The position numbers were made by a program, and so were the translations under genes. This document shows, in pieces, positions 45,056 through 64,000 of a stretch of 64,000 nt of DNA. The stretch covers positions 62,001-126,000 of the forward strand of contig CAISDV010000089.1 in assembly GCA_903884185.1 (NCBI GenBank), written 5' to 3'. The stretch is from an uncultured Chitinophagaceae bacterium (GTDB taxonomy: Bacteria > Bacteroidota > Bacteroidia > Chitinophagales > Chitinophagaceae). The first letter of the stretch is position 1. Every line of letters begins with the position of its first letter. Below the pieces are notes generated by a model, which was not told where the DNA came from, did not search any database, and saw only the letters and a program-made list of their open reading frames with translations.

Positions 45056-46903
45056 ATGAAAAAATTACTATTTATTTTATCTTCTTTCTGCTTATGTGCA
45101 GGAGTTCTCGCACAGTTGCCCGATCTGGACCGAGTTCAGCCAGGTAACTGGTGGGTGGGTATGAAGAACCCCAAACTGCAAATAATGGTTCATGGCAATA
45201 AAATTGCAGAACGTAATGTGAGCCTGGCATACGCAGGAGTGAAACTTGTGAAAGTGAATAAAGTAGAAAACCCTAATTATCTTTTTTTGGATATTGAAAT
45301 TACTGCCACTGCAAAACCCGGAACATTTCCCATTGAATTTACTTCAGCAGGAAAAAAATCAGTATCGTATAATTATGAATTGAGTTCGAAGAACAGATCT
45401 GCTGGTCGCGTGCAGGGAGTAACCAGCAAGGACCTGATCTACCTTATCATGCCCGATCGTTTTTCCAATGGCGATGTAAGCAATGATAAAGTAAATGGAA
45501 TGAGGGAGATGACTCTGAACAGGGATTCTATGTACGACAGGCACGGCGGAGATATACAGGGCATCATCGATCACCTTGATTATTTAAAAGACCTGGGTAT
45601 TACTACTGTATGGTGTACACCCGAGATAGAAAATGATATGCCACATGCATCCTATCATGGGTATGCGGTAACAGATCATTACAAGATAGATCCGCGTTAC
45701 GGAACAAATGAATTGTTTAAAACTTATGTAGAGAAATGCCATGCGATGGGTTTGAAAGTGATCAAAGATGCGGTGCATAATCATATCGGGAGTTATCATT
45801 GGACGATGCTTGACCCGCCAATGAAAGACTGGGTACACCAATGGTCAAAATTTACGCAGACAACTTATAAAGAACAGACGGTGATGGATCCGTATGCATC
45901 AGCGGCCGATAAAAAATTAATGCTCGATGGATGGTTTGTGCGTTCTATGCCCGACATGAATGAAAGCAATCCTTATGTACAAAATTTTTTAACACAGAAT
46001 CTTATTTGGTGGGTGGAATATGCAGGAGTGGATGGATTGAGGCTGGACACTTATCCATACAATGATCCCGCATACATGGCACAGTGGGCAAAGGATATGA
46101 AAACAGAATTCCCGCACCTGAGCATTTTTGGTGAGACCCTGGTGGGCAGCGTGATCAACCAGGCATTTTTTACAGAAGGGAATACAGTCAGCAGGGGATT
46201 TGATACGCATTTACCCGGCATTACAGATACACAGGTAAAGGATGGCATCTATGAAGCATTGAATGGAAAGAAGGGATGGGCGAGTGGAGTGAACAGGTTA
46301 TATAATACTCTTGCCAATGATTTTGTTTATAAAGACCCAAGCCGGAATGTGATCTTCATGGATAATCATGATATGAGCCGTTACTATTCATTGGTGGATG
46401 AGGATATCAATAAATTCAAATCAGGGTTGATCATGCTTTTTACAACGCGTGGAATACCGCAGATATATTATGGAACAGAGATATTGATGAAAAACCTGTC
46501 AAACCCCGATGGCCTTGTCCGACTTGATTTCCAGGGTGGATGGAAAGGCGATAAGAGTAATAAATTTACTGCAGAAGGAAGAACGGACAGTGAAAATGTT
46601 GCTTTCAATTTTGTAAAAAAATTGGCCAATTACAGGAAGAACAATGCAGTATTGCAAACGGGTAAGCTGATGCAATACGTTCCGCAGGATGGTGTGTATG
46701 TTTACTTCCGTTATAATGAAAAGAAAACAGTAATGGTGGTGGTGAACAGTAATGAGAAGGAAGAAAAGATCGATGCAAAAAGATTTTCAGAAAGAATGAA
46801 TGGATTTGCAACAGCTATTGATGTTATAAGCGGAGTAACAACAAATATCAGCGGGCTTGCCATCGCTCCAAAAACAACTGAAGTGTTTGAATTGAAAAAA
46901 TAA
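45056..46903 (+). CDS. SusA-like neopullulanase / cyclomaltodextrinase (GH13)
   Basis: A 615-residue exported amylase that hydrolyses maltodextrins, expected in the periplasm. The ATG at 45056 yields a clean signal peptide (KKLLFILSSFCLCAGVLAQ). An N-terminal cyclomaltodextrinase domain (RVQPGNWWVGMKNPKLQIMVHG) precedes the barrel: YLIMPDRFSNGD, HGGDIQGIIDHLDYLKDLGITTVW, VIKDAVHNHIG, nucleophile Asp331 in GLRLDTYPY, acid/base Glu360 in IFGETLVG, Asp439 in MDNHDMSRY. The C-terminal domain ends VFELKK. It lies between the secreted GH13 and the sugar transporter; all three share strand and likely substrate. Confidence 0.92.
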   Translation: MKKLLFILSSFCLCAGVLAQLPDLDRVQPGNWWVGMKNPKLQIMVHGNKIAERNVSLAYAGVKLVKVNKVENPNYLFLDIEITATAKPGTFPIEFTSAGKKSVSYNYELSSKNRSAGRVQGVTSKDLIYLIMPDRFSNGDVSNDKVNGMREMTLNRDSMYDRHGGDIQGIIDHLDYLKDLGITTVWCTPEIENDMPHASYHGYAVTDHYKIDPRYGTNELFKTYVEKCHAMGLKVIKDAVHNHIGSYHWTMLDPPMKDWVHQWSKFTQTTYKEQTVMDPYASAADKKLMLDGWFVRSMPDMNESNPYVQNFLTQNLIWWVEYAGVDGLRLDTYPYNDPAYMAQWAKDMKTEFPHLSIFGETLVGSVINQAFFTEGNTVSRGFDTHLPGITDTQVKDGIYEALNGKKGWASGVNRLYNTLANDFVYKDPSRNVIFMDNHDMSRYYSLVDEDINKFKSGLIMLFTTRGIPQIYYGTEILMKNLSNPDGLVRLDFQGGWKGDKSNKFTAEGRTDSENVAFNFVKKLANYRKNNAVLQTGKLMQYVPQDGVYVYFRYNEKKTVMVVVNSNEKEEKIDAKRFSERMNGFATAIDVISGVTTNISGLAIAPKTTEVFELKK

Positions 46904-46941
46904 AGATTACGAGACTCATTCATCATCTTAATTAATTGTCC

Positions 46942-48282
46942 ATGGCCGCGATCATCACAAAACCGAAACTTTCTTTCTGGCAGATCTGGAATATGAGCTT
47001 TGGATTTCTTGGAATACAGTTCGGGTTTGCATTACAGAACAGTAATGTCTCCAGGATATTACAAACTTTTGGAGCTGATGTTGAGAACCTTTCATTCTTC
47101 TGGCTGGCAGCACCTATTACGGGAATGATCGTGCAGCCTATCATTGGGCATTACAGCGACAGGACATGGAACAGGCTTGGAAGGCGTAAACCGTATTTTT
47201 TAGCGGGAGCATTACTTGCATCAGCAGCATTATTATGTATGCCTAATGCAGGAGCGCTGGCATATTATATATCACCAATCATGATCGGTGCGGGTATGCT
47301 CATGATCATGGATGCATCTTTTAATGTGGCGATGGAACCATTCCGTGCTTTGATCGGTGATAATCTTCCGGATAGTCAGCGGACCCTTGGATTTTCTGTG
47401 CAAACATTTTTAATAGGAATAGGAGCGGTGCTGGGTTCGTGGTTGCCGTATATTTTTTCTGAGTATTTACATATTGCAAAGACTGCAGCACCCGGGCATG
47501 TACCACCCAATGTGATCTACTCTTTTTATACCGGCGCATTTGTTTTAACAGTGAGTATACTTTGGACAGTATTCAGAACAAAAGAATATTCGCCTAAAGA
47601 GTATGCGGCATTTTATCCTGCAGAAGAAAAAGAAGAATCCAAAGGGCTGCTCACGATCGCGAAAGATTTTTATCATATGCCCAAAACCATGCTACAACTG
47701 GGTTTGGTGCAATTCTTTTCATGGTTTGCATTATTTACGATGTGGGTTTTTACAACACCTGCTATTGCGCAGCATGTATATAAAGTAACACCTGGCGATA
47801 CTTCTTCTGCAAAGTTTGCCGATGCGGGAAACTGGGTAGGAATTCTATTTGGTATATATAATGGTGTGTCGGCTATATATGCTTTGATCTTACCTTCTAT
47901 TGCAAAGGCCTGGGGCCGTAAGAAAGCACATTCTTTTTCATTGGCTTGTGGAGGCATTGGACTGGTTTCCATTTATTTTATCAGCAACCCTAATATGCTG
48001 ATCTTCTCTATGATCGGGATCGGTTTTGCCTGGGGAAGTATTTTATCGATGCCTTATGCAATACTGGCCGGCTCTATTCCTGCAAAAAAGATGGGAGTGT
48101 ACATGGGCATTTTTAATTTCTTTATTACGTTCCCGCAGATCGTCAATGGTTTTTTTGGTGGAATGATGGTAAAGAAATTTTTTAATGGAGAACCTATTTA
48201 TGCAATAGTGCTGGCAGGTGTTTGTATGTTTTGCGGAGCTGTTTCTATCCTATATGTAAAGGATCAAAAATCACTGAATTAG
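46942..48282 (+). CDS. MFS sugar transporter (GPH/SLC45-like, probable maltose transporter)
   Basis: A 446-residue inner membrane transporter with about 12 hydrophobic segments. Signatures are WNMSFGFLGIQFGFALQNSNVSRILQTFGA at the start and PIIGHYSDRTWNRLGRRKPYF, the RxGRRxP loop characteristic of the sucrose/maltose-type GPH and SLC45 carriers. ATG at 46942 (MAAIITKPKLSF), two codons inside the open frame. It follows the SusA-like gene by 38 bases, so the likely cargo is maltose or short maltodextrins released by that enzyme. Confidence 0.87.
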   Translation: MAAIITKPKLSFWQIWNMSFGFLGIQFGFALQNSNVSRILQTFGADVENLSFFWLAAPITGMIVQPIIGHYSDRTWNRLGRRKPYFLAGALLASAALLCMPNAGALAYYISPIMIGAGMLMIMDASFNVAMEPFRALIGDNLPDSQRTLGFSVQTFLIGIGAVLGSWLPYIFSEYLHIAKTAAPGHVPPNVIYSFYTGAFVLTVSILWTVFRTKEYSPKEYAAFYPAEEKEESKGLLTIAKDFYHMPKTMLQLGLVQFFSWFALFTMWVFTTPAIAQHVYKVTPGDTSSAKFADAGNWVGILFGIYNGVSAIYALILPSIAKAWGRKKAHSFSLACGGIGLVSIYFISNPNMLIFSMIGIGFAWGSILSMPYAILAGSIPAKKMGVYMGIFNFFITFPQIVNGFFGGMMVKKFFNGEPIYAIVLAGVCMFCGAVSILYVKDQKSLN

Positions 48283-48507: not shown

Positions 48508-51500
48508 ATGAAAAAATGCCTGCCAGACAAACTGTCTTTTGCTGCCTTACATCGTTATGCTAAGGTTACTGCTCAAAGCAAATTCTTTTTTCTTCTTGTG
48601 ATAAACCTGGTTGTGTTTAACCTCTGTGTTCTTGCACAACAGAAAGCTGTTTCAGGAAAAGTGACCAGCTCAAAAGGCGGTGCTCCGGTTGATGGAGCCT
48701 CGATCACAGTGAAAGGATTTAAAACCGGTACTACCACAAAAGCAGATGGAACATTCAGTTTAAATGTTCCTTCAGCGGCTACTACGCTGGTGATCTCTTC
48801 CGTTAATTTCGGAACAAGAGAAATGGCTATCGGAAGCGGAAAAGGTATTTCTATCAGCCTTGACCCGGTTAGTGAAGCATTGAGCGAAGTAGTAGTGATA
48901 GGTTACGGTACTGTAAAGAAAAAAGACCTGACCGGTGCTATTGCAACAGTTACTTCCAAAGATTTTCAAAAGGGAGTGATCACTACACCCGAGCAAATGC
49001 TTGCAGGAAAAGTTCCGGGTGTTTCTATTATTTCCAATAACGGCCAACCTGGTTCAGGAAGTACGATCCGTATTCGCGGTGGCGCTTCTTTGAATGCGAG
49101 CAATGATCCATTGATCGTGGTAGATGGAGTTCCTTTGGATAATGGTGGTATTTCAGGCTCAAGCAACGCATTAAGTTTTATCAATGCAAATGATATTGAA
49201 TCTTTCTCTGTATTAAAAGATGCATCTGCTGCAGCTATTTATGGAACAAGGGCTTCTAATGGTGTGATCATCATCACCACCAAAAAAGGAACCGGCGGTA
49301 AATTAAAAGTAGACTTCAGTTCTGTGAATTCTCTTTCAACTACTACCAAAGAAGTATCTGTATTAAGTGCTGCACAGTTTCGTACGATTGTAAACGCAAA
49401 CGGAACTCCTGCACAGCAGGCAATGCTTGGATCTGCTAACACCGATTGGCAGAGCCTTATTTATCAAAATGCTTTGGCAACAAATAATAATATCAGTTTT
49501 AGCGGAGGTGTCAAAGGCCTTCCTTACAGAATATCCCTCGGTTACCTGAACCAGAACGGAATATTAAGAACAGATAATCTCCAAAAAACTTCTTTGGCAG
49601 TAGTGCTGAATCCAACTTTTTTTAATAATCACCTGAAAGTGGATATTAATTTAAAAGGAAGCATGGAGAATACAAGGTTTGGTAACCAGGGTGCAATTGG
49701 CGGTGCTACCAGCTTTGACCCAACACAACCTGTTTACTCAAACAGCAAAAGATATGGCGGATATTTTGAGTGGGTAGATGCTTCAGGCAACCTCACCAAT
49801 CTTGCCGGAAAAAATCCACTGGGCCAGTTATACCAACGTATGGACCAGAGCACGCCACAAAGAAGCATTGGTAATATACAGGTGGATTATAAATTTCATT
49901 TCTTCCCTGACCTGCATATCAATGCCAATTTTGGTTATGATGTAGCTACCGGAAAGGGAACAGTATTTGTTTCAGACAGCGCTGCTGCAGAATATACAAG
50001 AGCAGGTGAAAGCAATCATTACCTGACAAACAGAACGAATACAGTATTTGAATCTTACCTGAGCTATGCAAAAGATATCAAATCCATTAAAAGCCATGTA
50101 GATGTTTTAGCAGGGTATTCATATAATGATTACCTGACAACGAATTATAGTTATGCTGATTATAATGCACACGGAGTTAAGATACCTAACTCAGACCCTT
50201 CGTTCCCATTCAATCAACCAGAACATACTTTAATCTCTTATTTCAGTCGTGCGAATTTTTCGTATGATGGACGCTACCTGGTAACAGCTACACTTCGCCG
50301 TGATGGTTCTTCACGTTTTGCACCGGTTAACAGGTGGGCATTGTTTCCATCGGTTGCATTTGCATGGAAGGCCAGCGACGAATCTTTCCTGAAGGGCAGT
50401 AAAGTATTATCAGACCTGAAGATCCGTTTGGGTTATGGTGTTACCGGCCAGCAGGATGGAATAGGTAACTATGATTATCTCTCTTATTATGCTTTGAGTT
50501 CTGCCAACGCCTCTTACCAGTTTGGAAACACTTTCTACCAGGGCTTCAGGCCGGGTGGATTTTATGCCAACAGGAAATGGGAGCAGACAACTACTTATAA
50601 TATTGCCGCTGATTTCGGTTTCTTAAATAACAGGATCACCGGTAGTGTTGATTTCTACCTCAAACAAACAACAGACCTCTTAAACCAGATACCTCAGCCT
50701 GCAGGAACAAACTTCTCTGCATACGTTGTAGCCAATGTGGGCAGCATGGAAAACAAAGGAGTAGAACTGAATGTTAACATGCAGATGATCAGGCACAAGA
50801 ACTTTACCTGGGACCTGAGCGTGAATGGTACCTATAACAAAAACACGATCACGAACCTGACCGTAATACCTAACGACCCTAACTACCTTGGTTTCCAGAG
50901 CGGTTCTATCGCGGGTGGTATTGGCGGGCAGTTTGCTTACCTGAATGCAGTGGGATCCAGCAAGAACACCTTTAACTTGTACAGGCAGGTTTATGATAAA
51001 TCATCAAACCCTGCAGAGGGAGTTTTCGTAGATAAGAACGGTGATGGCATCATTAACCAGAATGACCAGTTTAAAGGAAAACATTCTGACCCTGACTTTT
51101 ATTTTGGGCTTAGCACCAACGTTGGATATAAGAAATGGAGCGCCGGATTTGTAATGCGTGCCAGCGTAGGCAACTATGCTTATAATAATACGTATAGTCA
51201 AACAGGCACATTGAACCAGCTATTAGGTAACTCTGTTTTATATAACGCATCAAGCAACTACCTGGCAACATTGTTCAAGGGTGGTAATGGGCAGGAGTTG
51301 CTGAGTGATTATTATATTCAGAATGCTACTTTCTTAAGAATGGATAATTTCAATATCGGGTATAATGTGGGCAGGGTATATCATGACAAGGCAAACCTCA
51401 GGTTAAGTGCAAACATTCAGAATGTATTTGTCATAACGCAATATACCGGCCTGGATCCTGAATTGAGTGGAGGTATTGATAACAACCTTTATCCAAGGCC

Positions 51501-51537
51501 AAGGGTATTCTCTTTAGGATTAAATCTTGATTTTTGA
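48508..51537 (+). CDS. SusC/RagA-type TonB-dependent outer membrane transporter
   Basis: A 1,009-residue outer membrane importer for oligosaccharides. Export signal within residues 1-44 (FFLLVINLVVFNLCVLAQ). Then a carboxypeptidase-regulatory-like domain (KAVSGKVTSSKGGAPVDGASITVKGFKTGTTTKADGTFSLNV), the SusC box SEVVVIGYGTVKKKDLTGAI, the plug (TPEQMLAGKVPGVSI, IRIRGGASLNASNDPLIVVDGVPLDNG, DIESFSVLKDASAAAIYGTRASNGVIIITTKKG) and the beta barrel to the terminal FSLGLNLDF. First gene of the proposed galactan locus, behind a consensus promoter and two LacI-type operators. susD follows after 29 bases. Confidence 0.96.
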   Translation: MKKCLPDKLSFAALHRYAKVTAQSKFFFLLVINLVVFNLCVLAQQKAVSGKVTSSKGGAPVDGASITVKGFKTGTTTKADGTFSLNVPSAATTLVISSVNFGTREMAIGSGKGISISLDPVSEALSEVVVIGYGTVKKKDLTGAIATVTSKDFQKGVITTPEQMLAGKVPGVSIISNNGQPGSGSTIRIRGGASLNASNDPLIVVDGVPLDNGGISGSSNALSFINANDIESFSVLKDASAAAIYGTRASNGVIIITTKKGTGGKLKVDFSSVNSLSTTTKEVSVLSAAQFRTIVNANGTPAQQAMLGSANTDWQSLIYQNALATNNNISFSGGVKGLPYRISLGYLNQNGILRTDNLQKTSLAVVLNPTFFNNHLKVDINLKGSMENTRFGNQGAIGGATSFDPTQPVYSNSKRYGGYFEWVDASGNLTNLAGKNPLGQLYQRMDQSTPQRSIGNIQVDYKFHFFPDLHINANFGYDVATGKGTVFVSDSAAAEYTRAGESNHYLTNRTNTVFESYLSYAKDIKSIKSHVDVLAGYSYNDYLTTNYSYADYNAHGVKIPNSDPSFPFNQPEHTLISYFSRANFSYDGRYLVTATLRRDGSSRFAPVNRWALFPSVAFAWKASDESFLKGSKVLSDLKIRLGYGVTGQQDGIGNYDYLSYYALSSANASYQFGNTFYQGFRPGGFYANRKWEQTTTYNIAADFGFLNNRITGSVDFYLKQTTDLLNQIPQPAGTNFSAYVVANVGSMENKGVELNVNMQMIRHKNFTWDLSVNGTYNKNTITNLTVIPNDPNYLGFQSGSIAGGIGGQFAYLNAVGSSKNTFNLYRQVYDKSSNPAEGVFVDKNGDGIINQNDQFKGKHSDPDFYFGLSTNVGYKKWSAGFVMRASVGNYAYNNTYSQTGTLNQLLGNSVLYNASSNYLATLFKGGNGQELLSDYYIQNATFLRMDNFNIGYNVGRVYHDKANLRLSANIQNVFVITQYTGLDPELSGGIDNNLYPRPRVFSLGLNLDF

Positions 51538-51566
51538 TCAGTTCTAACAATTGTAAAAAAGCATAT

Positions 51567-53177
51567 ATGAAAACAAGAAATCGTTTTGAAACCATTCTTA
51601 CCGTTGTTATTCTGATAGCAACCTTAGGAGCATGTACCAAAAAACTGGACCTGACGCCAACGAATGATATCACTTCCCAGACAGTGTACAGCACTTCTGC
51701 CGGGTATAAGATGGCATTGGCGAAAGTATATGACGCTTTTGCGCTAACAGGTAACCAGGGTGGAACGGGTAACCCCGATATCCCAACGCAAATCATCTCG
51801 GATGAAGGTAACTCCGACTTTTTCAGGTTGTACTTTAATGTGCAGGAGCTTACTACCGACGAAGCTGCATGGACATGGCAGAATGATGGTGGCATACAAG
51901 GCTTGCATGAAATGAGCTGGTCTGCTATCAACCCGATCATTGATGGTTTATACTATCGCTCTTTTTTCCAGATAACATTGGCCAACGATTTTATCAGGCA
52001 ATCTTCAGATGCGAATTTGAGCTCAAGAGGAATTACAGGTGCCAGTGCAGACAGCATACGCCACTACAGGGCTGAAGCAAGATTTTTAAGAGCTTACCAG
52101 TATTTTGTGCAGATGGACCTGTTTGCAAACCCTCCGTTTGTTACTGAGAATGATGCCATTGGTAGTGTGATACCTAAACAAATAAAACGTGCAGATCTGT
52201 TTACTTATATCGAATCTGAATTAAAAGCGATTGATGGAAGCCTTGTTGCACCAAAAACAAATGAATATGGCCGTGCAGACCAGGCTGCTGCATGGGCACT
52301 CTTGTCACGTATGTATTTGAATGCAGGGGTTTATACCGGTACAGCGAGATATACAGATGCGATCACTTATTGCAACAAACTTACCAGCGTTTACACATTG
52401 CATCCTGATTACACTCAATTGATGCTGGCTGATAATAATCTGAATACCGACGAATTCATCTTCACTATTAACTATGATGGTACTTATACCCAAAACTGGG
52501 GAGGTACAACTTATATGGTTCATGGGCCTGCAGATGTTCCGGCCGGAGTTTCTGGTACCAGCGGTGACTGGGGTGGATTACGCTGCACACAAAATTTTGT
52601 GACATTGTTCTCTGATTACAGTGGAGCTACTGATAAACGCGCACAGTTCTACCAGACAGGACAAAACCTGGCGATGAATGATCTCTACACAAAGACCGAT
52701 GGTTTCTCAACATTTAAATACAGGAACGTAACAAGAACAGGAGCTAAGGCTGCTCATGCGGATCCTGCAGGAAACTGGGCTGATGTGGATTTCCCTTTAT
52801 TCAGGCTTGGAGAAACATATCTTATTTATGCTGAAGCAGTATTGCGTGGCGGAACAGGTGGTGATGCGGCTACAGCTTTAAGCTATATCAATAAAATACG
52901 CACCCGTGCATATAATGGAAGCACAGCAGGAAACATTACATCGGGCCAGTTAACTACTGATTTTATCCTGGATGAAAGAGCAAGAGAAATGTATTATGAA
53001 GCTACCAGGCGTACAGATCTGATACGTTACGGTAAATTCACTACCAGCGCTTATTTATGGGCATGGAAGGGTGGAGTTAAAGCAGGGACATCAGTATCGG
53101 ATAAGTATAATATCTTTCCTATCCCAACTACCGATCTGTCTGCGAACCCGAACCTTGTTCAAAACACAGGATATTAA
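51567..53177 (+). CDS. SusD/RagB-type nutrient-binding lipoprotein
   Basis: A 536-residue surface lipoprotein that caps SusC and binds glycan. The ATG at 51567 gives a lipoprotein signal ending LGAC. The conserved opening follows: KKLDLTPTNDITSQTVYST, then the TPR-like helices (RAEARFLRAYQYFVQMDLFANPPFVTENDA) and the C-terminal half with FPLFRLGETYLIYAEAVLRGG, YINKIRTRAYNG, DFILDERAREMYYEATRRTDLIRYGKF and IFPIPTTDLSANPNLVQNTGY. Complete and of normal length. Its glycan specificity cannot be read directly. Confidence 0.96.
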   Translation: MKTRNRFETILTVVILIATLGACTKKLDLTPTNDITSQTVYSTSAGYKMALAKVYDAFALTGNQGGTGNPDIPTQIISDEGNSDFFRLYFNVQELTTDEAAWTWQNDGGIQGLHEMSWSAINPIIDGLYYRSFFQITLANDFIRQSSDANLSSRGITGASADSIRHYRAEARFLRAYQYFVQMDLFANPPFVTENDAIGSVIPKQIKRADLFTYIESELKAIDGSLVAPKTNEYGRADQAAAWALLSRMYLNAGVYTGTARYTDAITYCNKLTSVYTLHPDYTQLMLADNNLNTDEFIFTINYDGTYTQNWGGTTYMVHGPADVPAGVSGTSGDWGGLRCTQNFVTLFSDYSGATDKRAQFYQTGQNLAMNDLYTKTDGFSTFKYRNVTRTGAKAAHADPAGNWADVDFPLFRLGETYLIYAEAVLRGGTGGDAATALSYINKIRTRAYNGSTAGNITSGQLTTDFILDERAREMYYEATRRTDLIRYGKFTTSAYLWAWKGGVKAGTSVSDKYNIFPIPTTDLSANPNLVQNTGY

Positions 53178-53219
53178 AATTGAAGAATCTATCTAATGAA
53201 TCATTATAAAAACAACCGT

Positions 53220-54380
53220 ATGAAAAATTTATTTAACAAGCTCTGCCTGGTAAGCACGATCGCTTTCCTCTTCTTTGCCTGCAAAAAAGATGATCCAGGA
53301 CTGCTACTGAAAAACGGAACCTTCTTTACATCAGGTTCTGTGGGGCTGTCAGCAACCCCATCTACTCCATTGGTATTAGACAGTACCAGCGGAGGCTCCA
53401 AAACTGCTGTTACATTGAACTGGCCTGCAGTGGATTTTGGTGCGTCGGTTGCGGTAACGTATACACTACAGATAGATTCTATCAATGATAATTTTGTGAA
53501 GCCCACCACCTATTCCATGGCGAGCGGTCTTACAAAAACTTTTACGATGGGCGACTTCAATACACTGGCGCAGAACCTGGGCTTAACACCTGGTACAGCC
53601 GGCCAAATCAAAGCGCGCGTAAAAGCAGATGTTAACCAGAGTAATGGAGTAGCTACTTCGGTACCAACTGTATATTCTAATACACTGACAATAACAGTAA
53701 CACCTTACTCAACAATACCTAAACCAATTTACCCGGTTCCTGCCGGTTTATATCTCGTTGGAGATGCAACAGCAGGCGGATGGAATAATCCTGTTCCTGT
53801 TCCAACACAGGTGTTCACGCAGATAGACGCGAATACATTCGGTATCGTTGCACAGTTAACAGGTGGTGGCCAATTCTTAGTATTACCTGTTAATGGCGAC
53901 TGGAGCCATAAATATGCTATCACAGGCGCAGGAAATCCTGCCGGCGGTGCATTTGTACCAGATGCTAATAATAACATGGTAGGGCCAACTACTACAGGTT
54001 TATATAAGATCGTTATGGATTTTGTAAAAGGAACTTATACGATCACTCCTGCAGTTGCGGGTGCAATACCAACAGCTCTCTTCCTGGTAGGAGATGCTAC
54101 AGCAGGTGGATGGAACAACCCTGTGCCTGTACCATCACAACAATTTACACGCATCAGCTCGGGAGAATATAAGATCACAATTGCATTGAGCAGTGCCGGA
54201 TCTTATTTATGGCTGCCAGTGAATGGCGACTGGACACATAAATATGGTGGTAGCAGCAAAACAGGTGGTGCGGTCTTGTTTGATAGCGCTGTTCCGGGAT
54301 CTAATACACCAGCTCCTTCAGCAAACGGAACTTATACCATTGACGTGAACTTCTTTAGTAACCTGTACACTGTAAAATAA
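53220..54380 (+). CDS. SusE/SusF-like outer membrane lipoprotein with duplicated C-terminal module
   Basis: A 386-residue surface glycan-binding lipoprotein. The signal ends FFAC, followed by KKDD, which resembles the lipoprotein surface-export signal of Bacteroidota. Residues 25-170 are the SusE domain (an Ig-like fold, VTYTLQIDSINDNFVKP). Then come two tandem copies of one module, each starting LxLVGDATAGGWNNPVPVP (about 178-275 and 285-386) and each with LPVNGDWxHKY in the middle. The copies differ at many synonymous sites, so the duplication is old. The aromatic WNN and W-HKY residues are candidate sugar contacts. The gene follows susD by 42 bases and ends at a strong terminator. Confidence 0.88.
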   Translation: MKNLFNKLCLVSTIAFLFFACKKDDPGLLLKNGTFFTSGSVGLSATPSTPLVLDSTSGGSKTAVTLNWPAVDFGASVAVTYTLQIDSINDNFVKPTTYSMASGLTKTFTMGDFNTLAQNLGLTPGTAGQIKARVKADVNQSNGVATSVPTVYSNTLTITVTPYSTIPKPIYPVPAGLYLVGDATAGGWNNPVPVPTQVFTQIDANTFGIVAQLTGGGQFLVLPVNGDWSHKYAITGAGNPAGGAFVPDANNNMVGPTTTGLYKIVMDFVKGTYTITPAVAGAIPTALFLVGDATAGGWNNPVPVPSQQFTRISSGEYKITIALSSAGSYLWLPVNGDWTHKYGGSSKTGGAVLFDSAVPGSNTPAPSANGTYTIDVNFFSNLYTVK

Positions 54381-54546: not shown

Positions 54547-54566
54547 TAGTACCCTAATTGTCAATA

Positions 54567-55604
54567 ATGAGTTACAAAGCAACGATAACAGATATCGCCA
54601 AGGAGTTGAACACTACTGCGGCAACTGTTTCGAGGGCACTGAGTGACCACCCGGGAATCAGTGAACATAGAAAGAGGTCTGTGCAACTGGTTGCGCAACG
54701 TTTAAATTATAAGAGAAATAAGATTGCGTCCTCTCTTCGTTCGGGCCGCACACACATGATCGGCGTGATCGTTCCAAGCGCCGAGATCAACTTCTTCGGA
54801 TCAGTAGTACATGGTATTGAAAGTATTGCCAACTCCAACGGCTATAATGTACTCATCTACCAATCGAACGAATCTTATGAACAGGAAGTAAAAGGAATCG
54901 AAACTTTCTTAACGGCAAGAGTGGATGGTATATTAGTATCCATCGCAAAAAATACAGTTGATTTTTCTCATTTCACTGAAGTAAAAAAAAGAGGGATCCC
55001 TATTGCGTTTTTTGATAGAGCGAATGATACCCTTGGGATACCTTCAGTGGTGATCAATGACTATAGTGGCGCTTATCATGCAACAGAACATCTCATCAAA
55101 CAAGGATATAAAAGGATCGCGCATGTTGCCGGGCCTAGCCATATCAAAATATTTAACGACAGGTTGAAAGGCTATGAAGATGCCCTGGCTGCCAATCATA
55201 TTAAAAAAGATCCCAGCCTGGTGTACCGTGGTAATGTATCGATTGAATCAGGAAAGGAAGCAGCTGCTTATTTTCTTGGGCTTGCTTCTCCGCCAGATGC
55301 AGTTTTTGCAGTAGAAGATTTTACCGCACTTGGATTAATGAAAGAAATAAAAGAAAGAAAACTTCGCATACCTGAAGACTTTGGTATTGTTGGTTTTGCG
55401 AATGAATTATTTGGTGAACATGTAACGCCAGCGATGTCAACCGTTGACCAGCAAACAGTGGCCATGGGAAAAGAAGCAGTTACTATGATCATGAAACTGA
55501 TAGACGCTACAGGCAAGGAGAAAAGCATGCAGGAAGAAAAGATCGTTCTCGATGCCATTCCCGTTTACAGGGAATCATCTATTAAAAAACACAAAAAGAA
55601 ATAA
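54567..55604 (+). CDS. LacI/GalR-family transcriptional regulator
   Basis: A 345-residue repressor-type regulator. The ATG at 54567 starts SYKATITDIAKELNTTAATVSRALSDHPGISEHRKRSVQLVAQRLNYKRN, the LacI HTH and hinge helix. The periplasmic-binding-like sensor domain follows: IGVIVPSAEINFFGSVVHGIES, VDGILVSIAKNT, VVINDYSGAYHATEHLIKQGYKRIAHVAGP, DAVFAVEDFTALGLMKEIKERKLRIPEDFGIVGFANE and STVDQQTVAMGKEAV. It lies between susCDE and the GH53 gene, and three identical LacI-type sites flank it (two upstream of susC, one upstream of GH53). It is the obvious regulator of this locus; galactose or a galacto-oligosaccharide is the likely effector. Confidence 0.93.
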   Translation: MSYKATITDIAKELNTTAATVSRALSDHPGISEHRKRSVQLVAQRLNYKRNKIASSLRSGRTHMIGVIVPSAEINFFGSVVHGIESIANSNGYNVLIYQSNESYEQEVKGIETFLTARVDGILVSIAKNTVDFSHFTEVKKRGIPIAFFDRANDTLGIPSVVINDYSGAYHATEHLIKQGYKRIAHVAGPSHIKIFNDRLKGYEDALAANHIKKDPSLVYRGNVSIESGKEAAAYFLGLASPPDAVFAVEDFTALGLMKEIKERKLRIPEDFGIVGFANELFGEHVTPAMSTVDQQTVAMGKEAVTMIMKLIDATGKEKSMQEEKIVLDAIPVYRESSIKKHKKK

Positions 55605-55674: not shown

Positions 55675-56757
55675 ATGAAAAAAATAACGCTAACGCTCGG
55701 GCTTGCCATCGCCATTTTATTAACTGGCTGCAGTAAAAATGATCCGGCTGCATCCTCTTCTGGTGGCGGAACAGTAACTCCTCCTTCATCGGGTGGTAGT
55801 GGTGGTGGAGGTACCTCTACTTCATCTGCCATTTTTGCAAAAGGTGCAGATATCAGCTGGCTCACACAAATGGAAGCGTCGTCATATAAATTTTATAATG
55901 CTTCAGGCACACAAATGGAATGTATGCAACTGATGCAAAGCCTGGGGATGAATTCGGTGCGGCTGCGTGTATGGGTAAACCCAACAGGTGGCTGGTGCAA
56001 TAACGCAGACCTTGTAGCCAAAGCTGTTCGTGCAAAGAATTTAGGATTGAGGATCTTACTCGATTTTCACTACAGCGATACATGGGCCGATCCCGGGCAC
56101 CAGGCAAAACCTGCCGCATGGGCCTCTTATGATTTTGCAACACTCACCAATGCTGTTAGCACCTATACACATAAAGTGATGGATACTTTACTCGCAAATG
56201 GTGTGATCCCAAGCTGGGTACAAATAGGTAATGAAACTAATGATGGAATGCTATGGCAGGATGGGAGAGCTTCTGTGAATATGGCAAACTTTGCGGCATT
56301 GGTGAAAGCCGGTTATACTGCGGTAAAAACTTACGGCGATTCTATTAAAGTTGTGGTGCATGTTTCTAATGGATATGATAACAGTTTATTCCGCTGGATG
56401 TTTGATGGATTAAAAACAAATGGTGCAAGCTGGGATGTGATAGGAATGTCGTTGTACCCATCCACCAGCAACTGGCAATCTTATGATAGTTTATGCCTTG
56501 TGAATATGAATGACATGATCTCACGATACGGAAAACAGGTAATGGTAGTTGAAGTGGGAATGAGTGTAACTGCAGCATCTACCTGCCAATCGTTCCTAAC
56601 AGACCTGATCACTAAAACAAGATCTATTGCAAGCAATAATGGATTGGGTGTATTTTACTGGGAACCGGAATGTTATAATAACTGGCAGGGATACGGATTA
56701 GGTGCGTTTGACAATACCGGAAAACCAACCGTCGCGATGAATGCATTTGCGAACTGA
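55675..56757 (+). CDS. GH53 arabinogalactan endo-beta-1,4-galactanase, lipoprotein
   Basis: A 360-residue enzyme that cuts internal beta-1,4-galactosyl bonds in pectic galactan. The lipoprotein signal ends LTGC (Cys19); a Ser/Gly/Pro/Thr linker (about 22-55) lifts the catalytic domain off the membrane, suggesting the outer surface. The GH53 barrel starts FAKGADISWLTQMEA, with LGMNSVRLRVWVNP, LRILLDFHYSDTWADPGHQ, acid/base Glu187 in VQIGNETNDGM and nucleophile Glu293 in MVVEVGMS, and ends VFYWEPECYNNW and so on. It lies directly after the LacI-type gene, with an operator in the gap, and precedes two more glycosidases. Confidence 0.93.
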   Translation: MKKITLTLGLAIAILLTGCSKNDPAASSSGGGTVTPPSSGGSGGGGTSTSSAIFAKGADISWLTQMEASSYKFYNASGTQMECMQLMQSLGMNSVRLRVWVNPTGGWCNNADLVAKAVRAKNLGLRILLDFHYSDTWADPGHQAKPAAWASYDFATLTNAVSTYTHKVMDTLLANGVIPSWVQIGNETNDGMLWQDGRASVNMANFAALVKAGYTAVKTYGDSIKVVVHVSNGYDNSLFRWMFDGLKTNGASWDVIGMSLYPSTSNWQSYDSLCLVNMNDMISRYGKQVMVVEVGMSVTAASTCQSFLTDLITKTRSIASNNGLGVFYWEPECYNNWQGYGLGAFDNTGKPTVAMNAFAN

Positions 56758-56811: not shown

Positions 56812-59397
56812 ATGAGAAATAACAGGCTCTGTATCGCTGCTATATCAGCAATGGTGTGCTTCTCATCTATTGCGCAGAAATCACCTTCAGCAAATGATGG
56901 GCCATTGGTGTATGTAGACAAGCAAGGCATATTAAAATGGACGGCAACAAATAAAGAAGCTGCTTTTTTCGGAGTGAATTATACAGTACCCTTTGCTTAC
57001 GGATACCGTTCTGTAAAATCATTGGGTATTGATCTTGAAAAAGAAATTGATGCTGATGTATATCATTTATCACGTATTGGCGTAGATGCTTTTCGTGTGC
57101 ATGTTTGGGATATTGAAATAACAGACTCGCTTGGTAATTTATTTGAAAATGATCACCTGCGTTTGTACGATTATCTTTTGTACAAACTTGAGCAGCGTGG
57201 CATCAAGATCATTCTTACCCCAATAGCCTTCTGGGGAAATGGTTATCCCGAGCGGGATGAAAAAACACCGGGATTTTCAAGTGTATATGGTAAAGACAAA
57301 TCATTAGTGAATGAACTGGCTATCAAAGCCCAGGAAAATTATCTTCAGCAATTATTAAAACACGTCAACCCATATACAAAGCGTACATATACGCAGGATC
57401 AACAAGTGATTGCAGTGGAAGTAAACAATGAACCACATCCATCTGGCCCGAAAGAAAAAGCAACGGAATATATCAACCGCATGGTGAGCGCTATTAAAAG
57501 TACCGGATGGAATAAACCTGTTTTTTATAATATCAGCGAATCACCTTTTTATTCTGATGCAGTAGCGAAATCAAATATTGATGGTTGCAGTTTTCAATGG
57601 TACCCCAGCGGACTGGTAGCCAATCACACACAGAAAGGAAATTTTCTTCCCAATGTTGACCGTTATATATTTCCTTTTGATTCAATCCCCCAATTTGCCA
57701 ACAAAGCAAGGATGGTATATGAGTTTGATGCTGCAGATATATTGCAATCCTGCATGTACCCTGCCATTGCCAGAAGTTTCAGGGGAGCCGGATTTCAATG
57801 GGCCACACAGTTTGCATATGATCCGATGGCAACGGCTTATGCGAACACAGAATACCAGACGCATTATCTGAACCTTGCTTATACTCCATCAAAGGCCATC
57901 AGTTTATTAATTGCTTCAAAAGCATTTCATCAATTGCCGCGTTTAAAAAGTTATGGCATCTATCCAGCTGATTCCAGCTTTGATGTATTCCGCGTCAGCT
58001 ATCGCGAACAATTAAGTGAGATGAATTCGGATGAAGAGTTTTATTATTCCAATTCAACTTCCACTCAACCAAAAAATACTTCAACGTTAAAACATATAGC
58101 AGGTGTAGGAAGCTCGCCGGTTGTCATGTACAAGGGATCAGGCGCTTATTTTATCGATAAACTGGAAAATGGTGTATGGCGATTGGAATTGATGCCGGAT
58201 GCGATCCATATACGTGACCCGTTTGAAAGAGCATCATTGCAAAAAGAAGTAACGCGCATTCAGTGGCAGTCGCAATCCATGCAAATTTTATTAACTGATC
58301 TTGGTGATGATTTTACACTGAAGGCTTTAAATGATGGAAATAGTTATACTGCGACAGCGAGTGGTTCTAATTTTCAAATACAACCCGGGGCCTATTTATT
58401 AATTCGCAAAGGGAAGGAGTCTTCAAACTGGAAAGCTACCAGCGAATCCGTTTATATCCATTTAAATGAATTTGTTGCGCCAAAACCTTTCAGCAATGAA
58501 CCTTATGTAGTGCACGAACCAAACTTTGAACATAGCAGTGGAAAAGCATTTACTATACAAACAAAGATCACAGATGTAGAAGCTGCAGATAAGGTAACAC
58601 TCGCGATCAATAAACTCAATGGCCCATCACGCAGTATTGTAATGGAAAGGGTTTCAACATTTGACTATTATGCACAAGTGCCTGCCGAATTAGCTGCTCC
58701 CGGGGTACTGAGTTACAGGATTATTATTCAAAAAAATAATGGCGACTATTATAGTTTTCCGGGAAATCATAAGGGTAACCCGTTTGCCTGGGATTACTAT
58801 TACAATGATACATGGCAGACATTCGTAGCAAATGATAAAAGCAATCTTGAAATACTGAATGCTTCAAAGGACAGGAACCTCTTGCTATACCCGGCATTCA
58901 GAAGAAATACTGAAACGCAATACATAGGGGGGGAGTCATCCGGGCAACTGGCATTGCATATGGGCGTTACCACAGAGTTGCAGGGCGATCATACCATTGG
59001 CTTCCAATATTATTTTGGCGATAAATTAAAAGGGCGCGTTTCCGAACTTTCTTCTTTCAGCAAAGTAGTGGTAAGAGTGCGGACAACATCCCCTCAACCC
59101 ATAAAAGCAAAATTATCATTGATCACAAGTGACGCCTCTCCGTATGCTAGCTATTTTACATTGGATAATAATTACCGAGATATAGAAATTCCGCTGAGCA
59201 AGCTGCAACCCGATTCCTCATTGTTATTGCCAAGGCCATACCCGGGATTTCTACCATTGTGGTTTAAAACAGGCAAGACAAATTTTTCTGTAACAGATAT
59301 TGAGAAAATGGAATTCACTATTGGATCAGATATCCTGCCATCAGAACTAGCGAAAGCATATAATTTTGAAATTGAATGGATAAGATTATCCAAGTAG
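56812..59397 (+). CDS. Clan GH-A glycoside hydrolase of uncertain family, exported
   Basis: An 861-residue protein with a signal peptide (residues 1-21, CIAAISAMVCFSSIA). Residues 30-390 form a barrel with clan-A landmarks: FFGVNYTVPFAYGYRS, DAFRVHVWDIEI, YDYLLYKLEQRGIKIILTPI, candidate acid/base Glu207 in VEVNNEPHP (the NEP motif) and candidate nucleophile Glu304 in MVYEFDAAD. This looks like a GH5/GH35/GH42-type relative but I cannot place it in a named family. Residues 400-560 are beta-rich (VVMYKGSGAYFIDKL), and 560-861 contain one or two further beta domains that could bind carbohydrate. It lies between the two galactanase genes, so an activity on galactan side chains or termini is likely. 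Confidence 0.75.
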   Translation: MRNNRLCIAAISAMVCFSSIAQKSPSANDGPLVYVDKQGILKWTATNKEAAFFGVNYTVPFAYGYRSVKSLGIDLEKEIDADVYHLSRIGVDAFRVHVWDIEITDSLGNLFENDHLRLYDYLLYKLEQRGIKIILTPIAFWGNGYPERDEKTPGFSSVYGKDKSLVNELAIKAQENYLQQLLKHVNPYTKRTYTQDQQVIAVEVNNEPHPSGPKEKATEYINRMVSAIKSTGWNKPVFYNISESPFYSDAVAKSNIDGCSFQWYPSGLVANHTQKGNFLPNVDRYIFPFDSIPQFANKARMVYEFDAADILQSCMYPAIARSFRGAGFQWATQFAYDPMATAYANTEYQTHYLNLAYTPSKAISLLIASKAFHQLPRLKSYGIYPADSSFDVFRVSYREQLSEMNSDEEFYYSNSTSTQPKNTSTLKHIAGVGSSPVVMYKGSGAYFIDKLENGVWRLELMPDAIHIRDPFERASLQKEVTRIQWQSQSMQILLTDLGDDFTLKALNDGNSYTATASGSNFQIQPGAYLLIRKGKESSNWKATSESVYIHLNEFVAPKPFSNEPYVVHEPNFEHSSGKAFTIQTKITDVEAADKVTLAINKLNGPSRSIVMERVSTFDYYAQVPAELAAPGVLSYRIIIQKNNGDYYSFPGNHKGNPFAWDYYYNDTWQTFVANDKSNLEILNASKDRNLLLYPAFRRNTETQYIGGESSGQLALHMGVTTELQGDHTIGFQYYFGDKLKGRVSELSSFSKVVVRVRTTSPQPIKAKLSLITSDASPYASYFTLDNNYRDIEIPLSKLQPDSSLLLPRPYPGFLPLWFKTGKTNFSVTDIEKMEFTIGSDILPSELAKAYNFEIEWIRLSK

Positions 59398-59505: not shown

Positions 59506-62500
59506 ATGAAACAGATGAGCTTGTGCTTGTTAATGACCTTCTTATTTCAAAGCATGATTCCCGCAGGATCGTATGCGCAATTTTCTTCCCAGCGCAAACA
59601 GATCAACTTTGATGAAGATTGGAAATTTCATTTTGGTGATGCAGCCGATCCATCTAAAGATTTCAACTTCGGTGTAGCTACTATTTTTTCCAAATCAGGC
59701 AAAAGTGAAAGAACTGCGATAGACCCAAGGTTTAAGGACAATGACTGGCGTACGCTGCAACTTCCACACGACTGGGCGGTAGAGCTTCCTTTTGAAAATT
59801 CGAAAAGCTTTGATGTGCTTTCACATGGATATAAACCAGTAGGTGGTTTGTATCCTCATACAAGTGTAGGTTGGTACCGTAAACATTTCTCTACAGCAAG
59901 AGCCGATTCTGGCCAGCGTTTTGTGATCCAGTTTGATGGAATTTTCCGCGACAGCAAAATATGGATCAATGGTTTTTATGTTGGGAATAATATGAGCGGC
60001 TATGTAGGAGCTTCTTTTGACGTCACTGATTACCTGAATTTTGATAAAGAAAATGTGATCGTTGTGCGCGTAGATGCTTCGCAGTATGAAGGATGGTTCT
60101 ATGAAGGTGCTGGTATCTATCGACATGTATGGCTGAATCAATACAATAATCTCCACATCGGTAATGATGGCGTTTTTGTTCATACTTCAGTTCAGAATAA
60201 AATAGCAACAGTAAACATTGAAACGCCTGTTACCAACCAGGACAGTCACTTGTCTAATTGTACCGTTGCAGTAACTGTTACAGACAGAAATGGAAAGGTC
60301 ATTGCACAATCTCCGGAACAGCCGTTATCACTTCGCATTAACGAAACAAAAACTGTTCAGCAAAAAGTTGCTATCAATCAACCCATTTTATGGTCGGTAG
60401 ATGATCCATATTTATACAGGGCGGTATCAGTGATCAGATCAGGCAATAAAATTATCGACAGTAAGAAAATAAGATTCGGCATCCGCACCATTAAAATTGA
60501 TTCAAGCGGTTTGTATGTAAATGGAAAATATACAAAAGTAAAAGGTGTGAATAACCACCAGGATCATGCGGGAGTGGGGAGCGCTTTACCTGATTACCTG
60601 CAATACTATCGCATTCGTTTGCTGAAAGAAATGGGCGTGAATTCCTATCGCACCAGCCATAATGCACCAACACCTGAATTATTAGACGCCTGTGATAGCC
60701 TGGGTATGCTGGTATTGGATGAAAACCGTTTACTAAACAGCAGCCCTGAATACCTGGGACAGTTTGAAAGATTGGTCCTTCGCGATCGCAGCCATGCATC
60801 TGTTTTTATGTGGTCAATCGGAAATGAAGAAGGCTATCTGCATACCACTACCGTAGGTAAACGGGTTGCATTAACCTTACTCGCTAAGCAAAAAGAATTA
60901 GACCCTACGCGCGTGAGCACTTATGCTGCAGATGTGGCGAATGTTTACAGGGGAGTGAATGAAGTGATACCTGTGCGTGGTTTTAATTATCGCATCCTTG
61001 GCGTGGATCCTTATCACAAAGACCATCCCAGCCAACCGATCATTGGAACAGAAATGGGAAGCACGGTTACTACCCGCGGTATTTATACAAAAGACAGTAT
61101 CCGTGCTTATGTGCCGGATGAAGATATCACTGCACCATGGTGGGCTAACACGGCAGAACAATGGTGGACACTTGCAGCAGACCGTCCCTGGTGGATGGGC
61201 GGATTTGTATGGACTGGTTTTGATTATCGTGGCGAGCCTACTCCTTATGAATGGCCAAACATCAGTTCGCATTTTGGAATCATGGATGTATGCGGCTTTC
61301 CTAAAAATATTTACTACTATTATAAATCATGGTGGACAGATGAAGATGTATTGCATATCTCTCCTCACTGGAACTGGAAAGGAAAAGAAGGGCAACCGAT
61401 CAATGTATGGGTGAATACAAATGCAGATAATGTTGAATTGTTTTTGAATGGCAAGAGCCTTGGAAAAAAAGATATGCCACGCAACAAACACCTTGAATGG
61501 AATGTGCCTTATGAAGCAGGAACACTGGAAGCCGTTGCATTTAAGAATGGAAGAAAGATCACCAGTAAAGTAGAAACAACCGGCGCTGCCAGTGAAGTTG
61601 TTGTAACGCCTTATAAAACCACGATGCTGGCAGATGGTACCGATGCATCAGTCATTAATATTAGTGTTGTTGATAGGCAGGGGCGTGAAGTACCTGATGC
61701 CAATAACCTGATAAAATTTATGATCAAGGGTGATATGAAAATTATTGGTGTAGGAAATGGAGATCCAAGTGATCATGACCCGGATAAATGCACAGATAGC
61801 GCATGGCAACGTCATTTATTCAATGGTAAATGCCAGCTGATCGTACAATCCGGCAGACACAAGGATATGATACGCTTTGAAGCAAAAGCTGATGGATTGC
61901 AAACAGGTAACACAGATATCATTACTATTCAACCCGGCGAACCACATGCAGTGGCTTCTGTGAAGAATGGTTTTGTGGCGCATCCACCTGCACATGCCAA
62001 GCCCGTTGATAAAATGATCGGCGCAGATATTTCTTTTTTACCACAACTGGAAGACAGGGGAATGAAATTTTCTGATAAAGGAGTTCAGAAAGATGCGGTG
62101 CAAATATTAAAAGACCATGGCCTGAATTATATACGGCTTCGCATTTTTAATGATCCTGCACGCGATAGTGGTGGCTATTCTCCTAAAAGAAGTTTTTGTG
62201 ATTTGGAACATACAAAGCAAATGGCAAAAAGGATCAAAGCAGCAGGCATGAAATTTTTACTTGACTTTCATTACAGTGATACATGGGCCGATCCGGGTAA
62301 ACAATATAAACCAGCAGCATGGCGCAATGAAGATTTCATGCAGTTGAAACAATCATTGTATGAATGGACAAAAAAAGTAATGGACGAATTGAAAGCGCAA
62401 GGCACTTCACCTGATATGGTTCAAGTTGGTAATGAGATCAATCATGGAATGGTATGGCCCGAAGGAAATATAGGTAACCTGGATAGCCTGGCGCAATTGG

Positions 62501-62931
62501 TGTATGCAGGTATCTGTGGTGTACAGGCGGTGGAACCATCTACTACCATCATGCTGCATATTGCGCTGGGTGGACAAAATGATGAGTCGCATTTATTCCT
62601 GAATAGTATGATAGAAAGGAGTGTGCCGTTTGATGTGATCGGCTTATCCTATTATCCAAAATGGCATGGTACATTAACCGACCTGAAATATAATGTAAAT
62701 GAACTGGCTAAAAGATATGGTAAGGATGTGATCGTAGTAGAATATTCACAACTGAAACGCGAAGTGAATGATATTGCATTTAACGTTGCGGATGGGAGGG
62801 GGAAAGGCACTTGTATATGGGAACCATTGAGTACCTGGGAAGGATTTTTTGACAGGGCAACAGGCAAATCGAATGATTTTCTGCTGGTCTATGATGAACT
62901 GAATAAGAAATTCATTGCCGGCAAGCCTTAA
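59506..62931 (+). CDS. GH2 beta-galactosidase fused to a GH53 endo-galactanase
   Basis: A 1,141-residue exported protein with two catalytic domains. Signal peptide 1-24 (LCLLMTFLFQSMIPAGSYAQ). GH2 part (about 30-610): sugar-binding domain (FDEDWKFHFGD, LPHDWAVELPF, GWYRKHFS, NPxYL-like DDPYLYRAVS), barrel with KVKGVNNHQDH, MGVNSYRTSHNAPTPELLDACD, acid/base Glu441 in MWSIGNEEG and nucleophile Glu516 in PIIGTEMGS. Then two beta domains: DUF4982-like (about 625-690) and GH2 domain-5/Big-like (about 695-825). From about 835 a complete GH53 barrel follows: MIGADISFLPQLEDRG, LDFHYSDTWADPGKQ, acid/base Glu977 in VGNEINHGM, nucleophile Glu1079 in VVEYSQLK. Both active sites look intact and no frameshift is visible. 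It probably trims imported galacto-oligosaccharides to galactose. Confidence 0.92.
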   Translation: MKQMSLCLLMTFLFQSMIPAGSYAQFSSQRKQINFDEDWKFHFGDAADPSKDFNFGVATIFSKSGKSERTAIDPRFKDNDWRTLQLPHDWAVELPFENSKSFDVLSHGYKPVGGLYPHTSVGWYRKHFSTARADSGQRFVIQFDGIFRDSKIWINGFYVGNNMSGYVGASFDVTDYLNFDKENVIVVRVDASQYEGWFYEGAGIYRHVWLNQYNNLHIGNDGVFVHTSVQNKIATVNIETPVTNQDSHLSNCTVAVTVTDRNGKVIAQSPEQPLSLRINETKTVQQKVAINQPILWSVDDPYLYRAVSVIRSGNKIIDSKKIRFGIRTIKIDSSGLYVNGKYTKVKGVNNHQDHAGVGSALPDYLQYYRIRLLKEMGVNSYRTSHNAPTPELLDACDSLGMLVLDENRLLNSSPEYLGQFERLVLRDRSHASVFMWSIGNEEGYLHTTTVGKRVALTLLAKQKELDPTRVSTYAADVANVYRGVNEVIPVRGFNYRILGVDPYHKDHPSQPIIGTEMGSTVTTRGIYTKDSIRAYVPDEDITAPWWANTAEQWWTLAADRPWWMGGFVWTGFDYRGEPTPYEWPNISSHFGIMDVCGFPKNIYYYYKSWWTDEDVLHISPHWNWKGKEGQPINVWVNTNADNVELFLNGKSLGKKDMPRNKHLEWNVPYEAGTLEAVAFKNGRKITSKVETTGAASEVVVTPYKTTMLADGTDASVINISVVDRQGREVPDANNLIKFMIKGDMKIIGVGNGDPSDHDPDKCTDSAWQRHLFNGKCQLIVQSGRHKDMIRFEAKADGLQTGNTDIITIQPGEPHAVASVKNGFVAHPPAHAKPVDKMIGADISFLPQLEDRGMKFSDKGVQKDAVQILKDHGLNYIRLRIFNDPARDSGGYSPKRSFCDLEHTKQMAKRIKAAGMKFLLDFHYSDTWADPGKQYKPAAWRNEDFMQLKQSLYEWTKKVMDELKAQGTSPDMVQVGNEINHGMVWPEGNIGNLDSLAQLVYAGICGVQAVEPSTTIMLHIALGGQNDESHLFLNSMIERSVPFDVIGLSYYPKWHGTLTDLKYNVNELAKRYGKDVIVVEYSQLKREVNDIAFNVADGRGKGTCIWEPLSTWEGFFDRATGKSNDFLLVYDELNKKFIAGKP

Positions 62932-63017: not shown

Positions 63018-64000
63018 ATGAATAAAGAGGGCCTTCTCAAATATTTTGATTCCATCTTCGGCCAGGAACCCGTTATTGTCCGTTCGCCGGGAAGGGTGAA
63101 CCTGATGGGCGAACACACGGATTATAACAAGGGTTTTGTATTGCCAGCGGCTATTGATAAGGCCATTTATATGGCTGCTTCAAAACGTGAGGATGATGAA
63201 CTGCATTTTGTATCAAGCGACCTGAAGGAAACCTATCGCGGTAGCCTGCATGACCTGAAACCTTCTTCCATGCATTGGCCCGACTATATCCTGGGCGTTA
63301 TCCAGCAATTAAAGAATAATGGTCATACCATCGGAGGAATGAATTGTGTCTTTGGCGGAGATATTCCCATTGGTGCAGGGATGTCTTCATCAGCTGCATT
63401 GGAATGTGCTACACTGTTTGCATTGAATGAAATTTATGGATTGGGGTTAGACAGGTTAAGCATTGCAAAAATGGCGCAGAAAGCAGAGAATGATTTTGTA
63501 GGAGTGCAGTGTGGGATCATGGACCAATTCGCAAATATGTTTGGCAGGGCCGAGCATTTGATAAGATTGGATTGCCGCTCACTTTCTTACGAATACATTC
63601 CTTTTGATTTTAAAAATACCACCATCCTTTTGCTTGATACAGGAGTGAAACATTCACTTGCTTCATCTGAATATAATACCAGGCGTAAGCAATGCGAAGC
63701 AGGTGTTCAATTAGTGAAACGCCATCATCCCGAAGTACAGAGCCTGCGTGATGTTACAATGGAAATGCTGGATGAACATGTATTGGCCTCTGATAAGATC
63801 ATCTACCAGCGTTGTAAATATATTGTAGAAGAGAACAGGCGTTTACTGAACGCATGTAAAGACCTGCAATCGGGAAATGTTCATGCATTTGGTAAAAAAA
63901 TGTTTGAGACGCATGAAGGGCTCAGTAAATTATATGAAGTGAGTTGTGAAGAGCTTGATTTTCTTGTTACACAAGTGAAAAAACATCCTGGTGTTTTAGG
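63018..64000 (+). CDS. galK: Galactokinase, 5' part (open at window end)
   Basis: Phosphorylates galactose at C1 with ATP, the entry to the Leloir pathway, in the cytoplasm. About 327 codons are visible. The start MNKEGLLKYFDSIFGQEP is followed by the galactokinase signature GRVNLMGEHTDYNKG, the GHMP ATP loop IPIGAGMSSSAALECA, and CGIMDQFANMFGRAEHLIRLDCRSL (catalytic Asp area). The GHMP C-terminal region continues past the window edge. A three-codon ATG-CGC-ATA-TGA frame overlaps just before the start and may tune initiation. It lies 86 bases after the GH2-GH53 gene and fits the galactan assignment; no LacI-type operator is seen in that gap. Confidence 0.95.
   Translation, partial: MNKEGLLKYFDSIFGQEPVIVRSPGRVNLMGEHTDYNKGFVLPAAIDKAIYMAASKREDDELHFVSSDLKETYRGSLHDLKPSSMHWPDYILGVIQQLKNNGHTIGGMNCVFGGDIPIGAGMSSSAALECATLFALNEIYGLGLDRLSIAKMAQKAENDFVGVQCGIMDQFANMFGRAEHLIRLDCRSLSYEYIPFDFKNTTILLLDTGVKHSLASSEYNTRRKQCEAGVQLVKRHHPEVQSLRDVTMEMLDEHVLASDKIIYQRCKYIVEENRRLLNACKDLQSGNVHAFGKKMFETHEGLSKLYEVSCEELDFLVTQVKKHPGVL

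Follow-up and report, generated by a model that had tools for sequence, protein, structure and literature searches.

A Single-Chain GH2-GH53 Protein, a Predicted Exo/Endo Enzyme, in a Galactan-Type Locus of an Uncultured Chitinophagaceae Bacterium

Internal cleavage of beta-1,4-galactan is the activity of GH53 enzymes; GH2 enzymes of the GalA type take off terminal galactose, GH2 being a family of many specificities. The two families meet in the pectic galactan locus of Bacteroides thetaiotaomicron, BT4667-BT4673, which encodes a GH2, a GH53, SusE, SusD, and SusC proteins, and a hybrid two-component regulator, HTCS (PMC5238430). GH2 and GH53 are drawn there as separate proteins, a contrast that the original prediction for the present locus had also drawn. 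GH53 is found in other company in Clostridium stercorarium, i.e., with CBM61 modules (PMC6106730). The multicatalytic Bacteroidetes enzyme CE15-GH8 (PMC8417218) and the fused acetyl-feruloyl esterases of Bacteroidetes, whose substrate is described as xylan (PMC7110780), likewise place two catalytic modules of one pathway on one chain. They differ from the protein described below in pairing an esterase with another module and in addressing other plant cell-wall substrates. No mention of "GH2-GH53" or "GH53-GH2" was found in the open-access literature searched, an absence that is no proof that the fusion is undescribed. The arrangement is a new one of known families and is widespread and apparently unstudied.

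A Galactan-Type Gene Cluster

The window, i.e., the whole 64,000-nucleotide stretch of contig CAISDV010000089.1 that was analyzed, carries between positions 48508 and 63998 the clustered SusC/SusD, GH53, and galactose-enzyme genes by which a galactan polysaccharide utilization locus is recognized. The gene order is as follows.

48508..51537, plus strand: SusC-like importer (1329 bits against its counterpart in fused locus L159)
51534..53177, plus strand: SusD-like protein (823 bits against its counterpart in fused locus L159)
53196..54380, plus strand: SusE-like surface glycan-binding protein (Pfam PF14292)
54558..55604, plus strand: LacI-family regulator (Pfam PF00356, PF00532)
55675..56757, plus strand: stand-alone GH53 with a lipoprotein signal (LLTGC, read by eye), likely a surface galactanase (PF07745, 308 bits)
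56812..59397, plus strand: 861-aa protein, probable glycosidase (weak clan GH-A, GH5, match)
59506..62931, plus strand: fused GH2-GH53 gene, a single open frame of 1141 aa (Pfam, NCBIfam, homologues)
63018..63998, plus strand: galactokinase, truncated by the window end and complete in locus L112 (NCBIfam TIGR00131, 271 bits)

The SusC and SusD genes are assigned to the galactan genes, rather than to the starch genes upstream of them, because of their strong matches to the L159 pair. These starch/maltodextrin genes (42014-48282, plus strand), which directly precede the galactan cluster, encode a cyclomaltodextrinase, an MFS transporter, and an amylase bearing a type 9 sorting tail. The 861-aa protein shows the conserved motifs NNEP and VYEFDAAD and adjoins GH53 genes in many loci. 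A GH28 pectinase is present in a related locus.

The likeness to BT4667-BT4673 lies in the GH2 and GH53 families, the SusC/D/E importer, and the proposed order of events, a surface GH53 followed by later trimming. The differences are that the Bacteroides locus has GH2 and GH53 as separate proteins and a hybrid two-component regulator, whereas in the window the GH2 shares one chain with a second, different GH53 type, and a LacI-family regulator and galK are nearby. The second, stand-alone GH53 beside the fusion had been predicted and is borne out; it and the fused frame are the only two GH53 genes found in the genome. An additional GH53 gene is likewise present in 32 of the 60 fused loci with enough flank. 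This pairing fits a division between a surface GH53 and a periplasmic fused enzyme.

Architecture of the Fused Protein

By direct reading of the window, an ATG at 59506 opens a frame that runs without an internal stop to 62931. All of its segments are on the plus strand:

59506..59580: signal peptide MKQMSLCLLMTFLFQSMIPAGSYAQ, about residues 1-25, read by eye, no lipobox
59608..60138: GH2 N-terminal sugar-binding domain, residues 35-211 (Pfam PF02837, 2.7e-17)
60169..60486: GH2 immunoglobulin-like domain, residues 222-327 (Pfam PF00703)
60490..61389: GH2 catalytic TIM barrel, residues 329-628 (Pfam PF02836, match 329-528; 7cwd alignment)
60826-60828: GH2 acid/base Glu441 (alignment to Bacillus circulans beta-galactosidase 7cwd)
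61051-61053: GH2 nucleophile Glu516 (alignment to 7cwd)
61390..61560: DUF4982 domain, residues 629-685 (Pfam PF16355)
61603..61911: GH2_C5 beta domain, residues 700-802 (Pfam PF18565)
61918..62013: C5-to-GH53 linker, residues 805-836 (variable in homologues; low model confidence)
62014..62901: GH53 endo-galactanase barrel, residues 837-1132 (Pfam PF07745; 7osk and 1r8l alignments; model; fold matches)
62434-62436: GH53 acid/base Glu977 (alignments to 7osk and 1r8l)
62740-62742: GH53 nucleophile Glu1079 (alignments to 7osk and 1r8l)

All Pfam domains score far over their curated cut-offs. Residues 36-804 match the whole of the NCBIfam model "beta-galactosidase GalA" (NF041462) at 1079.4 bits against a cut-off of 900. 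Stand-alone GalA-type enzymes belong to the same clade; the fused protein differs from them in adding a GH53 barrel behind the C5 domain. The GalA name comes from an HMM and is no proof of galactan activity; the function is a predicted one.

The GH53 part (Pfam match residues 838-1095) scores 297 bits against PF07745, the cut-off being 24. The match spans only profile positions 2-260 of 340, and completeness was therefore checked by structure. AlphaFold2 modelling on 58 fused homologues gave a structure with a mean pLDDT of 78 and a pTM of 0.79. All eight barrel strands are present in its GH53 part, forming a complete (beta/alpha)8 barrel, which rules out the incomplete GH53 that a match ending at 260 might bring to mind. 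Model residues 811-1108, corresponding to residues 835-1132 of the frame, superimpose on the solved GH53 galactanases 7osk, 1hjs, 4bf7, 1fhl, 2gft, and 6gp5 with Z 33-35 and rmsd 1.9-2.5 over 277-295 residues. The fold matches of this module are fungal, Bacillus, and B. thetaiotaomicron galactanases, and those of the GH2 module are B. circulans and Bifidobacterium beta-galactosidases. Compared with PF07745 members and with BT4668 (structures 6gp5, 6gpa), the fused-type GH53 has the same fold, motifs, and catalytic pair; the stretch that follows its nucleophile is shorter, as seen in the Pfam match stopping at position 260, and it makes up a separate clade.

The catalytic glutamates sit in motifs of the solved structures, namely "WSIGNE" and "GSE" for GH2 and "QVGNE" and "VVEY" for GH53. 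Glu441, Glu516, Glu977, and Glu1079 are Glu in 58 of 58 aligned fused homologues, which are 65-72% identical to the window protein. Thus, what had been proposed from the letters of the window, i.e., a full GH2 running in frame through beta domains into a full GH53, with these residues as the two catalytic pairs, holds up: the domain search returns the GH2 domains followed by a GH53 with both glutamates. Since the catalytic pair is invariant and the barrel complete, an inactive GH53 serving only as a binding module is unlikely.

No part of the protein is less conserved than the linker, which has 60% mean column identity across the 58 fused homologues, against 80% for GH2 and 83% for GH53. Its length varies from 25 to 36 residues, and a low-confidence stretch of the model (model residues 791-810) falls within it. 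A lipobox is absent by a simple pattern in 58 of 62 fused frames, and no sorting tail is among the Pfam matches of the fused protein. Judged by eye and by this pattern, the protein is secreted and probably periplasmic.

Distribution and Origin of GH53 Fusions

The closest homologues were taken as the best 80 loci from one-per-species bacterial genomes. Most of these loci have a complete GH2-GH53 frame, amounting to about 60 distinct complete proteins, so the architecture is not special to the window locus. Fused proteins extend beyond the Chitinophagaceae to records of Flavobacteriaceae, Saprospiraceae, Sphingobacteriaceae, Cyclobacteriaceae, and Flectobacillaceae, and isolates with the fusion include Flavisolibacter nicotianae, Lacibacter luteus, and Arcicella rosea.

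Within the window's own family, the window-type GH53 occurs in 98 of 396 genomes, and 72 of 100 matches lie in frames longer than 1000 aa. These listed lengths are an imperfect proxy for fusion: in genomes G007 and G016 they disagree with the stop-to-stop frames, which are closed by a stop codon lying between two in-frame neighbours. Twenty further loci were therefore read directly. Nineteen show an uninterrupted GH2-GH53 frame; the remaining one, in genome G703 (locus L245), has no GH2. The fusion is thus present in about 70 of the 396 sampled species of the family (~18%). Across the phylum at large it is rare. In a sample of 395 genomes, any match to this GH53 was found in 91 and GH2-GH53 frames in five, one of which is of an independent type.

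The same subfamily also has GH2 enzymes that stand alone (59-72% identity, frames of 805-880 aa). On the GH2 tree, the fused enzymes come out as a single group (98) nested within these stand-alone GalA enzymes, so a single origin of the GalA-type fusion is likely. The GH53 tree unites three sets with good support (100/100): the fused domains, the C5-GH53 proteins, and a clade of short GH53s that stand alone. The order of gain and loss is taken from the GH2 tree, as the forks of the GH53 tree leave the internal order open.

Modules have also been lost among the relatives, namely in L163, in L054, and in the C5-GH53 proteins of Mucilaginibacter. The GH2 tree places the loss of GH53 in L163, a single genome, after the fusion, this relative being 72% identical to the window protein; GH2 was lost in one or more relatives. 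Seventeen distinct C5-GH53 proteins, from Mucilaginibacter and relatives, are in the GH53 tree. They keep GH2_C5 and a window-like linker ("QPG..H.V") and have no GH2 barrel. The simplest reading is that they would derive from a fused ancestor minus its GH2 barrel. Proteins of this kind, of ~470-505 aa, are encoded in L072, L073, L078, L082, L102, and other loci, mostly of Mucilaginibacter, and L078 has two such genes in tandem. Because some relatives dropped one or the other module, the fusion is not essential.

Other GH53 proteins carry different partners, as follows.

L153:7402-10899, minus strand; L219:4098-7625, plus strand; L220:4021-7548, minus strand: GalB-like GH2 joined to a canonical GH53, in one genus of another family
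L221:5328-8989, plus strand: the same GalB-like pair as two overlapping frames (genome G620, same genus)
L155:5226-9080, plus strand: GH35-GH53 in one 1285-aa frame (genome G352, single genome)
L223:7978-11340, minus strand: GH95-type domain and a window-type short GH53 in a 1121-aa frame (genome G031)
L217:4533-7109, plus strand: GH53 with a C-terminal carboxylesterase-type domain
L218:4152-6071, plus strand: GH53 with an N-terminal alpha/beta-hydrolase domain

In addition, L216 has a more divergent GH2 joined to GH53. GH35 is a beta-galactosidase family distinct from GH2, and GH95 is an alpha-L-fucosidase/galactosidase family. The GH2-free frame of G703 is of the same length as that of G031 and comes from the same genus, from which it is expected to be GH95-GH53. 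The GH35-GH53 fusion was not found in the 12 other genomes of the family of L155. Grouping window-type GH53 domains with those of the GalB-like, L216, and L155 proteins is rejected by AU tests (p 8e-7, 3e-6, and 6e-4, respectively); the constraint also separates GalA-type fused rows from their split relatives, so that part of the likelihood cost is unrelated to the other fusion, which leaves GH35-GH53 (p 0.0006) the least clear case. Similar joins to GH53 arose separately elsewhere, with GalB-like GH2, divergent GH2, GH35, and GH95 as partners.

Proposed Function and Significance

We propose, with a probability of roughly 0.8, that the fused protein is a bifunctional secreted exo/endo enzyme belonging to a locus for pectic beta-1,4-galactan, in which the two tethered activities finish off imported galacto-oligosaccharides. 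This reading is favored because the domains score over their cut-offs, the catalytic pairs are invariant, the folds match those of galactan and galactose enzymes, and the neighbours are of galactan type. Degradation would begin at the cell surface with the stand-alone lipoprotein GH53, and SusC/SusD would import the products. In the periplasm, the fused enzyme would complete the breakdown, its GH53 barrel cutting internal beta-1,4-galactosyl bonds of the imported galacto-oligosaccharides and its GH2 barrel removing galactose from the new non-reducing ends. Galactokinase would then feed the galactose into metabolism. The main effect of the fusion may be that a short variable linker keeps the two activities in the same place and at a one-to-one ratio. 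The GH95-GH53 and esterase-GH53 proteins count against the bifunctional reading, as they indicate that GH53 partners are not limited to beta-galactosidases.

It is also conceivable that the two modules differ in the linkage they attack, with beta-1,4-galactan as the target of GH53 and beta-1,3- or beta-1,6-galactosyl caps or branches as that of GH2, the fusion then serving to strip decorations. GH2 is polyspecific, the closest solved GH2 by sequence being B. circulans beta-galactosidase II (7cwd), and the replacement of GH2 by GH95 before the same GH53 type would suit debranching. Against this, genes for galactan and galactose are present in the locus, with no obvious set for arabinogalactan, and no sequence feature examined separates the linkages. 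We regard this division of labor as unlikely, if worth keeping in view.

Direct hand-over of substrate between the two active sites, i.e., the channelling of galacto-oligosaccharides suggested in the original prediction, is a considerably weaker candidate and appears improbable. The modules are adjacent on one chain, and the whole model has a pTM of 0.79, but the region between them varies in length and sequence. Because that linker is both poorly conserved and poorly predicted, a loose tether is more likely. The prediction as a whole therefore stands in its single-chain exo/endo architecture, its catalytic pairs, and its contrast with Bacteroides, and is unsupported in its channelling component. 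Finally, an assembly join or missed frameshift merging two genes has practically no chance of being the explanation, and an artefact of this sort is refuted: gene boundaries do vary, as in the split GalB-like pair, but the window frame has no stop, and about 60 distinct complete proteins, drawn from independent assemblies that include isolates, show the same junction, as do 19 of 19 further loci.

Returning to the bifunctional exo/endo reading, the wider distribution bears on what such a protein may be good for. The separate joins of beta-galactosidase-type modules to GH53 suggest that the union of exo and endo action in a single polypeptide has been selected for. GH53 is also a promiscuous fusion partner in general, since GH95 and esterase-type modules are joined to it as well. 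Tentatively, and at somewhat less than even odds, the joining of an exo-galactosidase to GH53 may be a recurrent Bacteroidota solution, reached from several partner families (GalA-type, GalB-like, and divergent GH2, and GH35), that measurably improves the finishing of imported galactan fragments. The most interesting side of the finding is that such fusions have arisen repeatedly and independently. The fused enzyme would be a ready-made single enzyme for converting pectic galactan to galactose, and the fused, split, and partly lost versions in related bacteria provide a natural comparison set for the value of combining the two activities in a single protein.
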